Shown here: piece by piece, positions 3,517-9,317 of the stretch | Layout: the number at the start of each line of letters is the position of its first letter | Position numbering within the stretch: position 1 is the stretch's first letter | Assembly: GCA_963575745.1 (NCBI GenBank) | Contig: CAUYUJ010001370.1 | Coordinates: 463,501-527,500, forward strand | DNA length: 64,000 nt | DNA from: Prorocentrum cordatum | Lineage: Eukaryota > Sar > Dinophyceae > Prorocentrales > Prorocentraceae | Direction: 5' to 3' | Translations under genes and position numbers: made by a program | Notes under the pieces: model-generated | Database searches by the model: none | What the model was told of the DNA's origin: nothing | What the model saw: the letters and a program-made list of their open reading frames with translations, nothing else

Positions 3517-4560
3517 ATGCGCCTTCAAGCAGTTTCTCTCGCGATTCTTTCTTTGATGGCGGCTGGGGTTTCCATTGGCTTCCTCGATCGCGCCATCGCT
3601 GATGCGCGGCACTTCGTCGGCGCTTTTGGGCCGCAGGCTACTTTCACGGTGAGGTTCGTGAGCCAAGACAAGAAGACGGGCCATAAGTTGCCAGTTCTGG
3701 CAGCGGCCGCGCTGTCAGAGCAACTGCCTGGCCTCATCCACAGATCCCACGCGGAGGTGCTCCACTTGTTCGTCAGGCCCCACGGGGGGAACATCATCAT
3801 GCTCGACGCTGACGTGTCCGTCCTGCCCGATGGCCACGCGGAGTGCTTGGCGATGGCACCTGTGGTCGTTGTGGCCACCAGCGGATGGGAATGCTCAAAC
3901 CGTCAGTATTGGTACGCCATGGACCCTGCGGGGCTGCGGGGCGGGGAAGGCCGCAACGTCACACTCACCTTGCAGCGCCTGTTGGGCACAGATCCCAATT
4001 CCACTGCGGAAGAACAGTTGGGTCGCATGCCGGGGTCCCTTAACGCCAAGCCGCATAAGCTATGCACGGCGCAGCTTGTGACCGTGTCGCGAAGTTTCTT
4101 GAACGCTGCCCGCTTCTACTCCCTGACCGCCAGGCACACGCCGCGCCTGACCGTCGACAGAGCGGGCGACGTGTCGGCGCAGATACCTCGCGCACCTGCC
4201 CAGTACAAGGCGTCATCTGTGGCCCACGACGCCAGCAGCTTGGACTGGAAAGCGTGCTGCGAGTTCTGGGAACTGTCGCCGCACGCTTCCCTGCAAGATT
4301 GCATCGCGGCCGTGCATTGGCGCAAAACTACAGCGTGGGAAGCTTACAGGGAGACGACCGCTAAGAAGGCCAGGGACAGGGTGCTCCGAAGAAGCCCCGC
4401 CGCAGACACATCCCCGCCGCCGCCCGCGGCCGCGCCGCAGCCTGACGCTGGCCGCCCGCCTCCGCCGCCAAGTGCGCCGCCGATGCTCGTCGCCCACGCG
4501 CAAACTGCCGAACCTTCTTCGGGTTCCGGCGACGCGCAGGCGCCAAGCGGGGCCGCGCCG
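3517..4560 (+). CDS. Archaeo-eukaryotic primase domain, RepB/PrimPol type
   Basis: The frame is open from 3,478 (TTG). The first ATG in it is 3,517. Numbering residues from 3,478, the metal site appears as MLDADV with D110 and D112 in the hhDhD pattern. The second motif is S135-x5-N141-R-Q143-Y-W145. The LGRMPGSLNAKP stretch at 181-192 matches the 'RxPGxxNxKP' signature of RepB-like primases. A C-terminal helical segment (about 254-300, SLDWKACCEFWEL then KTTAWEAYRETTAKKA) matches the PriCT-like tail that usually follows. Such enzymes make primers for DNA replication. Past about residue 305 the frame becomes proline/alanine-rich, and sense appears to move from frame 1 to frame 2 between 4,390 and 4,700, by indel, intron or frameshifting. 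Key residues look intact. A RepB-type primase on an integrase element would be unexpected. The alternative is a separate gene lying beside the integrase. Confidence 0.72.
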
Positions 4561-5623
4561 CCTGTCCAGGCCGTCGGGGCACTCCCCGGGCGCTGCGGAG
4601 CCAGCGCCTGCTACGCCGCCGGTGTCTGCAGCCCGCGCGCTCGCGGCCGAGCAAAGCCGCCTTTGGCCCGCGGCGTCCTTCCGTCGTTTCTCGGGCGATT
4701 TGGGGTGCATCGACTCGCCCCCGTCCCCCGCTGCAAAAGCCGCGAGCAACGACCCGCCACGGTCAGGCAAGGCCGTGTCCGAGGGCGGGGCGCCTCCCGA
4801 CGATGTTGGCGCGTCGCCCCGCCGCCCTCCGCCCCCGCAGCCCGCGGGAGGAGACGGCGCGAGCGGCGACGGCGCCGAGCTGGAGTGCGCCAGAGGAGCG
4901 TTCACGTGTGCGGGCCTCGGAAAGCATTTGGCCAAGACGAGTTTCTCCAAGACCCAGCTCAAGTACGGCAGCGACAAGCGGTGCGTGGATTGCGCTCAAA
5001 AGGCACGCCCTGGGAAGGGCGTCTGCAGTGGCCATCGCCCGAGAAAGCTGAAGCAGTGTTCGTCTTGCCGCGCCGAGTTGGGGAAGGCATCTTTTGCCAG
5101 ATCCCTGTGGCTCTCAGCGGATTACGAGTCCCGCATCTGCAAGGGGTGCGCTGCGAAGCCAGGCCCGCCCCCAGAGCCTGCAGACAAAGTCGACGAGGAC
5201 ATGTTTGAGTCTCGGCCAGAGGCTCTACGATTCATCCTCACCTCGGCAAGTGCGCTCCCTTCCGTTGACATCCGTGCCAACGGCGCCGCGCGGACCTTGC
5301 ACGGCCGCTCTCAGCTAACCAGTATCGAGGTCGACGGGGGCTTGGCGGTGGAAGAGAAGCTTGAGCTACTCCAGAAAGCGCGCGACGAGGACCTTCAGCA
5401 CAGCGGTGGGGCCGATGGACTGCGCCGGGCCCTTGTCGATGCTATGGGGGGCTGGACGTACCTCGACCTGGGCGCCACCTTCTACGCGACGAGATGCGTT
5501 ACGCGTCGCCGAAGCACCTCTCGCGGAGCCTGCGTCGCAGACGCGCCGCTCCAACACCTTCCTGGGAAATTGGAGGCGCTGAATGTCGTCGGGCTCGATT
5601 TGAAGGTCCTGCCGTTCACGCGC
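4561..5623 (+). CDS. Proline-rich linker, two Stc1-like Cys-pair fingers, integrase N-terminal region with first catalytic Asp
   Basis: Read in frame 2. After a Pro/Ala-rich linker (to about 4,870) come two similar modules. Module one has a Cys near 4,887, FSKTQLKYG, then RCVDC (about 4,978). Module two has CSSC (about 5,058), a SFARSLW segment, then ICKGC (about 5,136). This spacing of Cys-x2-Cys pairs around an F-S/A-x-[ST/S]-Q/L-L core resembles the Stc1 zinc-binding fold. Further on, LLQKARDEDLQHSGG to FYATRCV (about 5,368-5,500) resembles a worn H2C2 integrase zinc domain, and VVGLDLKVLP (about 5,585-5,615) carries the first catalytic Asp of the integrase core. The exon is proposed to end at 5,623. 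The final finger Cys pair of the H2C2 domain is not clear, so decay or a small frameshift is possible. Confidence 0.55.
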
Positions 5624-8015: not shown

Positions 8016-9317
8016 GTCGGCGCGAAGGACGTCCGCGATAAGTGCGAGGACGGGTCGTTTGAGATCGTTGGCGTCGCGGGGCCATTGCTTGAGGTCAAGC
8101 GCAAGGGGGCCGAGCCGGGCCAGTCCAAGGCAACGGTCCGGACCATCCACAGGGGCATCGCTCGCTTGGCCGTCGTGGACATCGCCAGCTCCCAGGCAGA
8201 TTCCGCGCGGCCGCCGCCGCCCCCGGCGCGGAGGCGCACGGGGGCGTTGCCCAGGGTGATCAACATTCCTGACGACGGGCACTGCCTCTTCAGCGCCACC
8301 GCCTACGCCGCTAAGGGGATCAAAGGGAAAGTGCCCGGCGCGGAGCGGCTTTCCGTCGTGGGCCAGGCATGCCGGCAGGACGTTGCCGCTTGGATCGATG
8401 GGCGCCGCTCGCTCCTCGTGGGCGACGTTTCCATCGAATTCCCCCTTCGGACCGAGCTCGAGGACGACCCCCGCGTTGATGCGAGCGCCGAGTGGGCGAA
8501 GATCGCGCGGTTCATCCGGGCCCCGCGGTACTTCGCCAGCGGAGTGGCCATGTGCGCCATGGAACAGTTGTACCCTGTGTCCATCACGTGCTGCGAGAGG
8601 GGGGCCCACGGCTTGCGGATGATGCGATCCCCCGGAACCCTTCGAGAAGGCGCCGTCGCCGTGCAGTTGCTCCACAAGAACGGCAACCATTGCGACCTCT
8701 TCCGCGAAGCGCCGTGCGTGGACACGCTCCTCGGCCCCGACATTTCTGGCCCTGTGTCGGAGGCCGTCCGGTCGAACAGTCGGCCCCCGCCAGTGCCGGC
8801 GTCGGCTCCTGCTCCCGAGGCGAAGAGGCGACGTTTGATGAGCAAGCAATCGGCCGAGCCATCTCGGGGCACTGTGCTGCGGGCCGTTGACGGGATGAGG
8901 GGCGCGAGCAGCGGCGGCAAAACGAAGGTCATCAAGGACCTGAAGCGGCAGGGCTTCGCGGAAGCGGCTTCCCGGAGGTCGCTCAAGAGGCTCTGCGATG
9001 AGAAAGCTGTTTTTCCTTCGCAGACCAGGCGCTCGCTGCGCAATAGCAGTAGGAAGTGGAGAGCCTTGGGGGCTGACAAAGCTCAGGTAGCCGCAGCGAA
9101 GATACCCGAGGCTTCGCCTCATGCTGCCGACCCCCGTCATCTTCACTGGCAAAATGGCTACGGCTGTTTGGTGTCAAGCCAGAACAGGAGCGCGCTGCCG
9201 TGCGCCCGCGCACGGGCGTCGGCCGGCCGGCCTCCTCCCTGCCCGTGCTTCTTACCATTTTCTATACGGATTGCCCATTGTCTTAGCCATGGCTTATCCC
9301 AGCCTTTCTCTCGCTGA
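8016..9317 (+). CDS. Integrase C-terminal domain fused to OTU cysteine protease
   Basis: 8,016-8,180 (VGAKDVRDKCEDGSFEIVGV...TVRTIHRGIARL) reads as the rest of the integrase SH3-like tail. After a proline stretch comes an OTU domain. PDDGHCLFSATAYA (about 8,265-8,306) holds the catalytic Asp/Cys pair, with the Cys codon at 8,283. HKNGNHCDLF (about 8,676-8,705) holds the His at 8,688. OTU proteases cut ubiquitin or act as polyprotein-processing enzymes in viruses and transposons. A basic PEAKRRRL segment (about 8,814-8,837) could be a nuclear signal. The last 70 or so codons before the stop at 9,317 look less protein-like, so the true end may be earlier. The catalytic residues appear intact. 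Confidence 0.75.
   Translation, partial: VGAKDVRDKCEDGSFEIVGVAGPLLEVKRKGAEPGQSKATVRTIHRGIARLAVVDIASSQADSARPPPPPARRRTGALPRVINIPDDGHCLFSATAYAAKGIKGKVPGAERLSVVGQACRQDVAAWIDGRRSLLVGDVSIEFPLRTELEDDPRVDASAEWAKIARFIRAPRYFASGVAMCAMEQLYPVSITCCERGAHGLRMMRSPGTLREGAVAVQLLHKNGNHCDLFREAPCVDTLLGPDISGPVSEAVRSNSRPPPVPASAPAPEAKRRRLMSKQSAEPSRGTVLRAVDGMRGASSGGKTKVIKDLKRQGFAEAASRRSLKRLCDEKAVFPSQTRRSLRNSSRKWRALGADKAQVAAAKIPEASPHAADPRHLHWQNGYGCLVSSQNRSALPCARARASAGRPPPCPCFLPFSIRIAHCLSHGLSQPFSR

Follow-up and report, generated by a model that had tools for sequence, protein, structure and literature searches.

The stretch of DNA analysed here, a window of 64 kb (64,000 nucleotides of contig CAUYUJ010001370.1, forward strand) from Prorocentrum cordatum, harbours a 10,040-bp unit (657-10696, + strand) that is likely to be a damaged member of a multi-copy Ginger-like DNA transposon of P. 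cordatum or of a near relative. Inside the unit lies one spliced gene, whose product would be a transposase made up of a primase, Cys fingers, an integrase with H2C2 finger and DDE core, and an OTU-like domain. The order of these parts, the ends of one copy, the linkage of the parts in relatives and the conservation of catalytic residues are directly observed. A preliminary description of the window, made from its letters, had proposed a DNA transposon with integrase, primase-like and OTU-like domains and no reverse transcriptase (RT) within 5.8 kb. This has held up in the pieces scanned, and the element is larger than first noted.

Ends, gene structure and relatives

The element starts with TGTCGGCGGTGC and finishes with GCACCGCCGACA, the right end being the exact reverse complement of the left over a perfect 12 bp, and it is set in a (TA)n tract. 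Terminal inverted repeats (TIRs) are thus present at 657 and 10696; the 5' copy (657-715, + strand) pairs with the 3' copy (10633-10696, - strand) at 73% identity over 64 columns. Further inside, an 18-mer, ACCGGGGGGTTTCGTGCA, occurs on the + strand in four copies near the 5' end (at 699, 719, 787 and 834, within 699-851) and in three near the 3' end (at 10512, 10553 and 10592, within 10512-10609), and nowhere else in the 64 kb when up to 2 mismatches are allowed. An inner pair of 49-bp inverted arms follows, the first (1156-1204, + strand) being 94% identical to the reverse complement of the second (10300-10348, - strand). Of the five (TA) tracts of at least 10 bp in the window, one lies at the left end, and the other four either touch the right end or are no more than about 110 bp away from it. 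Among 236 inverted 12-mer pairs spaced 3-20 kb apart (low-complexity words excluded) an outer TA on both sides is found only for the 5 overlapping words of the termini.

Between these ends lies a single gene with two GT-AG introns, both in phase 0. Exon 1, which opens with the primase domain (3517-4470), closes with the first catalytic Asp of the integrase (LNVVGLDLK, 5579-5605). Intron 1 (5606-6359, 754 bp) is read across by three relatives, P0004, P0008 and P0009. It is followed by exon 2 (6360-7085) with the second Asp and the Glu of the integrase core, by intron 2 (7086-8015, 930 bp), across which P0009 reads IRQSQ-VGA, and by exon 3, whose first part (8016-8195) encodes the SH3-like C-terminal segment of the integrase, matched by P0009. 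All these features are on the + strand. The protein would thus run from the primase through Stc1-like fingers, H2C2 finger and first Asp (exon 1) to the D-35-E core (exon 2) and then to the SH3-like tail, the OTU-like domain and a conserved C-terminus (exon 3). The parts listed in the preliminary description are all present, on the strand and at the places given there: the quoted primase motifs, the Cys pairs (about 4907-5152), the Asp and Glu with 35 residues between them (6360-7085), and DGHC and GNHCDLF (8016-9122). What it overlooked are the H2C2 finger, the SH3-like tail, the two introns, a frameshift near 4568 and the TIRs. An abundance of introner elements has been reported for P. cordatum (PMC10666404). 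The two introns of the element gene, 5606-6359 and 7086-8015, are both long.

Six related proteins, P0002, P0003, P0007 and P0008 from P. cordatum and P0004 and P0009 from ENA, align with the gene at 40-99% identity and jointly cover all its parts. The four P. cordatum relatives are located on contigs of four different lengths, are not entries of the window itself and differ in sequence from the window copy. The five sequences that contain the primase (window, P0002, P0003, P0004 and P0008) all go on through the fingers into H2C2, of which at least the first part is present. P0002 stops within H2C2, P0003 and P0004 extend to the first catalytic Asp, and P0008, one gene model of 1054 aa, carries primase, fingers, H2C2, DDE core, tail and the first 104 residues (about two-thirds) of the OTU domain. 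P0004, 60-62% identical in the primase, shows the link from primase through fingers and H2C2 to the first Asp outside the P. cordatum set. The serial arrangement proposed at the outset is therefore that of one gene, which further P. cordatum copies share and which recurs partially in the two ENA proteins, and primase and integrase as separate, unlinked genes are absent among the proteins found. The three protein searches took their candidates by length and by words in common, and two of them scored only the candidates that shared most, so that a primase standing alone could have escaped notice. Scans of viral contigs and genome contigs, based on few short patterns, gave no relative.

Could the gene simply belong to a host family built on a domesticated integrase, rather than to a mobile element? 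It is spliced, and two of the copies have enzyme-like names in UniRef. However, these names (xylosyltransferase, OTU1) are inconsistent and look automatic, the primase part differs little (identity of about 88-99%) between the window copy, P0002 and P0003, which lie on contigs of different lengths, and the window copy is both bounded by TIRs and decayed. We regard a host gene family as very unlikely.

Domains of the predicted transposase

The N-terminal domain appears, from motifs that are kept and profile scores below cutoff, to be a primase of the RepB'/PrimPol-PV1 type. Motif I is located at 3796, motif II at 3898 and motifs III and IV from 3985, and MLDAD, S-x5-NRQYW and GRMPGSLNAKP all fall on the + strand within 3517-4590. 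The key residues of motifs I-IV are retained in all five sequences: hhhDhD in motif I, Gln in motif II, Asp in motif III, and in motif IV Arg followed by a hydrophobic residue with Asn at +6. In the RepB' group the usual His is replaced by Gln, and the Gln of motif II tends to pair with the Asn of motif IV (PMC5862659); both hold in the element. A Thr precedes the Asp of motif III, which is a loose fit to 'hydrophobic'. The four-motif pattern, defined like the OTU pattern below after the sequence had been inspected, is found in 1 of the 339 window open reading frames (ORFs) of at least 100 aa, and in 2 of 20,000 shuffles for the window copy and 11 of 20,000 for P0004.

Profiles point to the same stretch. 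PF16793 gives E 0.14 for 3517-4590 and 0.02 for 3730-4101 in the window, 0.004 for P0002, 0.0098 for P0004 and 0.00088 for a piece of P0004; its match to P0003 (E 0.0078) is not counted as support because the best stretch lies elsewhere in that protein. The profile phrog_3123, whose label names no function, matches at E 0.1 (window), 0.046 (P0002) and 0.00036 (the P0004 piece), but not in P0008. Between the window copy and P0008 the primase is 70.5% and the integrase 75.9% identical, so that the primase is conserved about as much as the integrase, which argues against a dead passenger.

The Stc1-like tandem Cys fingers (4907-5152, + strand) match PF12898 at E 0.009 in the window, 0.001 in P0002, 0.0064 in P0003 and 0.0091 in P0004, with no match for P0008. 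The best PDB match of the profile of A2 (the five-sequence primase alignment used for structure prediction) is 2luy, at E 0.62, which we take to be Stc1 of S. pombe; together with weak integrase rows it is the only entry in the PDB sequence searches that fits the domains of the element, and these searches gave no RepB' or OTU match.

The H2C2 finger of the integrase (5375-5506, + strand) matches PF17921 at E 0.37 in P0004 only. The catalytic triad reads D-61-D-35-E in the window copy, with 61 residues between the two Asp on the proposed splicing and exactly 35 between the second Asp and the Glu, both within 6360-7085. The preliminary integrase call was right about the D-35-E spacing; the first catalytic Asp is encoded in the preceding exon (VVGLDLK, 5579-5605). 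PF13683 (rve_3) matches the window at E 0.0014 and P0007, P0008 and P0009 more weakly, NCBIfam models of IS481 and IS3 match P0007 at E of about 0.009, and the exon 2 core is 68.6-75.9% identical to P0007, P0008 and P0009. The SH3-like tail has, by eye, GSF where GPY/F would be expected, and a low-confidence model of it gives non-significant matches to HIV-1 integrase chains. Neither Y.YY nor YP.Y occurs in the window pieces P0001, P0005 and P0006, in the finger segment or in the six relatives.

The OTU-like cysteine protease domain (8241-8738, + strand) is recognised by DGHC at 8274 and GNHCDLF at 8682, a pair that is conserved in the window and in P0007, where Ser replaces Gly in the first block. 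Its Cys/His pattern appears in 0 of 20,000 shuffles of the window segment and 0 of 20,000 of P0007. PF02338 (OTU) matches the P0008 piece only, at E 0.079 and below cutoff, and gives nothing for the window or P0007. The domain is followed by a conserved C-terminal segment (8830-9050, + strand) that aligns with P0007. Six related proteins and the shuffle tests thus place the motifs of the preliminary description beyond chance.

A number of observations weigh against this account of the element. Beyond their first 12 bp the TIRs are imperfect and broken up by simple repeats; the termini are known from one insertion, and a target duplication is unreadable within (TA)n. No domain of the element reaches its Pfam cutoff, and because all profile scores are sub-threshold every domain call rests on motifs and relatives. 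The profile searches that had been proposed as a check on the calls came out borderline, with sub-cutoff matches on one side and, on the other, no primase or Stc1 match in P0008. For PF16793 the best score is 19.6 bits against a curated cutoff of 24.3, and neither the whole ORF 3409-5205 (at E 1) nor P0008 is matched. All four H2C2 ligands are present in only two of the five sequences that cover the finger (P0004 and P0008), with three in P0009 and two each in the window and P0003. About 10 residues are missing at the join across intron 2 in the gene models P0007 and P0008, which leaves P0009 and the splice signals as the support for that join. P0008 also has Ser for Asn beside the catalytic Asp, and its OTU domain is cut short. 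AlphaFold models of the primase (A2, 5 sequences) and of tail plus OTU (A3, 4 sequences), with pLDDT (predicted local distance difference test) scores of 37 and 42, are too low to use, and Foldseek finds nothing at E <=0.001 with either; two of the three top matches of the A3 model are OTU domains, non-significantly.

These weaknesses lend some weight to the view that the primase label is wrong, and that an unrelated DNA-binding domain has acquired similar motifs by chance. Besides the low Pfam score and the lack of a usable structure model, it can draw on the absence of any primase match in PDB sequences and NCBIfam and on tblastn searches that gave chance matches only in plasmids and none in phages. 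However, two profile libraries (PF16793 and phrog_3123) mark the same stretch, and four motifs are kept in order, with the Gln/Asn pairing that the RepB' group would show. We consider the mislabelling unlikely.

Decay, surroundings and the role of the primase

The window copy is itself probably inactive and non-autonomous, because of a frameshift and lost zinc ligands. The reading frame changes inside exon 1 (4568-4569, + strand), where the alignment with P0003 switches from one frame, which ends at 4569, to another, which begins at 4568. Also replaced are a Cys of the fingers and two of the H2C2 ligands (one His, one Cys); the two H2C2 changes are common to P0003.

The surroundings are repetitive. 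A GC-rich satellite with 90-bp and 77-bp units that have a common core occupies 10984-11832, 16422-18697 and also 9-311, and thus flanks the element on both sides. Within the 5' part of the element (1270-3224) there are internal duplications, one of 255 bp at 94.5% and one of 169 bp at 87.6%. Short fragments of this part turn up again near 40.8 and 61.6 kb and may be nested repeats. Elsewhere, two + strand ORFs (21607-22542 and 23398-24342) weakly resemble Exo_endo_phos (E 0.12) and RVT_1 (E 0.13), and 21607-24342 is perhaps a decayed non-LTR (long terminal repeat) retrotransposon. An Rfam scan at gathering thresholds and a tRNA scan were both empty.

Decay could also be invoked to derive the unit from a retrotransposon with LTRs, or from an element of the Polinton type, stripped of its RT, polymerase and capsid genes. 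The integrase is indeed of the gypsy/retroviral type, the ends read TG..CA, and the flanks 9-422 and 11664-12053 are 68% alike in the same orientation. However, this similarity is that of the satellite, which is present also at 16422-18697, and the flanks were rejected as LTRs on that ground. The unit is bounded by inverted and not by direct repeats, in P0004 and P0008 the primase and fingers lead straight into the integrase without an intervening RT, and Pfam gave no match to RT, PolB, packaging ATPase or capsid in 20 pieces of the element, a subset of its six-frame ORFs. Such an origin is highly improbable, and the LTR, Polinton and domesticated-gene readings were all rejected on the evidence given for each.

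How would a Ginger-like transposon with such a gene move? In the scheme that we infer, the fingers and the integrase tail would most likely bind the repeated motifs at the element ends. The DDE core, whose chemistry would follow from its family, would cut after the ...CA-3' ends and join them to an AT-rich target, and the OTU domain could trim ubiquitin, so that the complex is stabilised or repair is tuned. The primase would lay primers on single-stranded element DNA, with a host polymerase completing or copying the element. A Ginger-like transposon that replicates with the help of its primase is a plausible, though unproven, reading, and the element may start its own DNA copying before insertion. 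The term 'self-replicating' used in the preliminary description is an inference.

The most far-reaching form of the idea is a eukaryotic integrase transposon in which a plasmid-type primase starts replication, a host polymerase is borrowed and the retroviral-type integrase of the same polypeptide inserts the copy. It would be a counterpart of Polintons that has no polymerase of its own, and would add a new class of replicative elements to the Ginger group. This is not very likely. A more sober alternative accepts the same description of the element but sees in it a cut-and-paste Ginger-like transposon that has captured a primase now used only for binding single-stranded DNA or filling the short gaps after integration and excision, and that has no replication of its own. 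Integrase and OTU alone already fit the published layout of Ginger1 (PMC2836005), enzymes of the AEP family also work in end-joining repair (PMC4538821), and the element pieces scanned gave no polymerase or helicase match. The catalytic residues, kept in five of five sequences, and the conservation of the primase close to that of the integrase favour an enzymatic role, without specifying its kind. We take capture for such purposes to be a realistic possibility, somewhat short of probable; replicative and gap-filling uses of the primase would look alike in sequence data such as these.

If the primase is active, the element would join the replication starters of prokaryotic plasmids with eukaryotic integrase transposons, which are normally separate. 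According to a review, the integrase and protease of Polintons may have come from Ginger-like elements; its authors also speculate that new kinds of transposons could arise when a primase is combined with a polymerase and a suitable integrase (PMC6431247). With primase and integrase in one gene, the passage from cut-and-paste to a replicative step becomes directly testable. The element would also offer an autonomous family of DNA transposons to examine in dinoflagellates, whose genomes are large and carry introner elements (PMC10666404).

Comparison with known systems

Like Polintons (Mavericks), the element combines a gypsy-type integrase with a cysteine protease and a replication enzyme. The protease of Polintons is of the adenovirus type, and the OTU domain stands in its place here; in contrast to Polintons, no PolB, ATPase or capsid match was found among the element pieces scanned. 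IS3EU/GingerRoot and IS481EU are likewise eukaryotic DNA transposons with an integrase-like DDE domain, and TA..TA termini like theirs may apply to the element given its (TA)n target (PMC10045372). In the excerpts of that paper these groups, and Polintons too, are without the HHCC motif, which in the element family is complete in P0004 and P0008 (two of the five sequences covering it) and partial in the other three.

The primases of the RepB'/PrimPol-PV1 group share with that of the element the hhhDhD order, the Gln of motif II, the Asp of motif III and the Arg-hydrophobic pair with Asn at +6. As excerpted, PMC5862659 describes them in plasmids and other mobile elements of bacteria and archaea, where they are partnered by helicase, PriCT or relaxase, whereas the primase of the element is fused to an integrase and occurs in a eukaryote.

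The closest published systems are the Ginger transposons (Bao, Kapitonov and Jurka 2010, PMC2836005), which have TIRs, TGTNR ends and an H2C2 plus DDE transposase, with OTU or Ulp1 in Ginger1. The preliminary statement that no described family was known for the set does not hold for the integrase with C-terminal OTU and TGTNR ends, since this is the layout of Ginger1; for the same reason Ginger, and not Polinton, is considered the nearest relative. The word 'primase' has 0 occurrences in PMC2836005, and no described element with primase, integrase and OTU appears among the literature matches listed, a set with few subscription papers and no Repbase. The new part relative to Ginger is the primase.

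With Ginger1, most transposase genes of which have introns, the element shares its nature as a TIR DNA transposon, the H2C2 finger with a gypsy-type DDE core, introns and TGTNR ends, and its C-terminal OTU-like domain has a counterpart in the OTU of Ginger1; the ends read TGTCG.. here, and TIRs of about 40-270 bp in Ginger1 compare with a 64-column imperfect TIR plus a 49-bp inner arm in the one copy seen here. It differs in its N-terminal primase and Stc1-like fingers, in lacking YPYY, in having GSF in place of GPY/F, in its (TA)n target as against the 4-bp CCGG/CCGT target duplication, and in its length (10 kb versus 2.6-7 kb). Ginger2/TDD elements have TGTNR ends, TIRs of 45-297 bp (Ginger2) and H2C2 plus DDE without YPYY or GPY/F. 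They target RTATAY, a preference with which the (TA)n position of the element is consistent, on one insertion with an unreadable duplication; in contrast to the element, the excerpted Ginger2 section of PMC2836005 mentions neither OTU nor primase. Compared by published description, the element thus combines a Ginger1 trait (an OTU-like domain) with Ginger2 traits (AT-rich target, no YPYY, no canonical GPY/F), and because it mixes the traits of both it is called Ginger-like, neither Ginger1 nor Ginger2.

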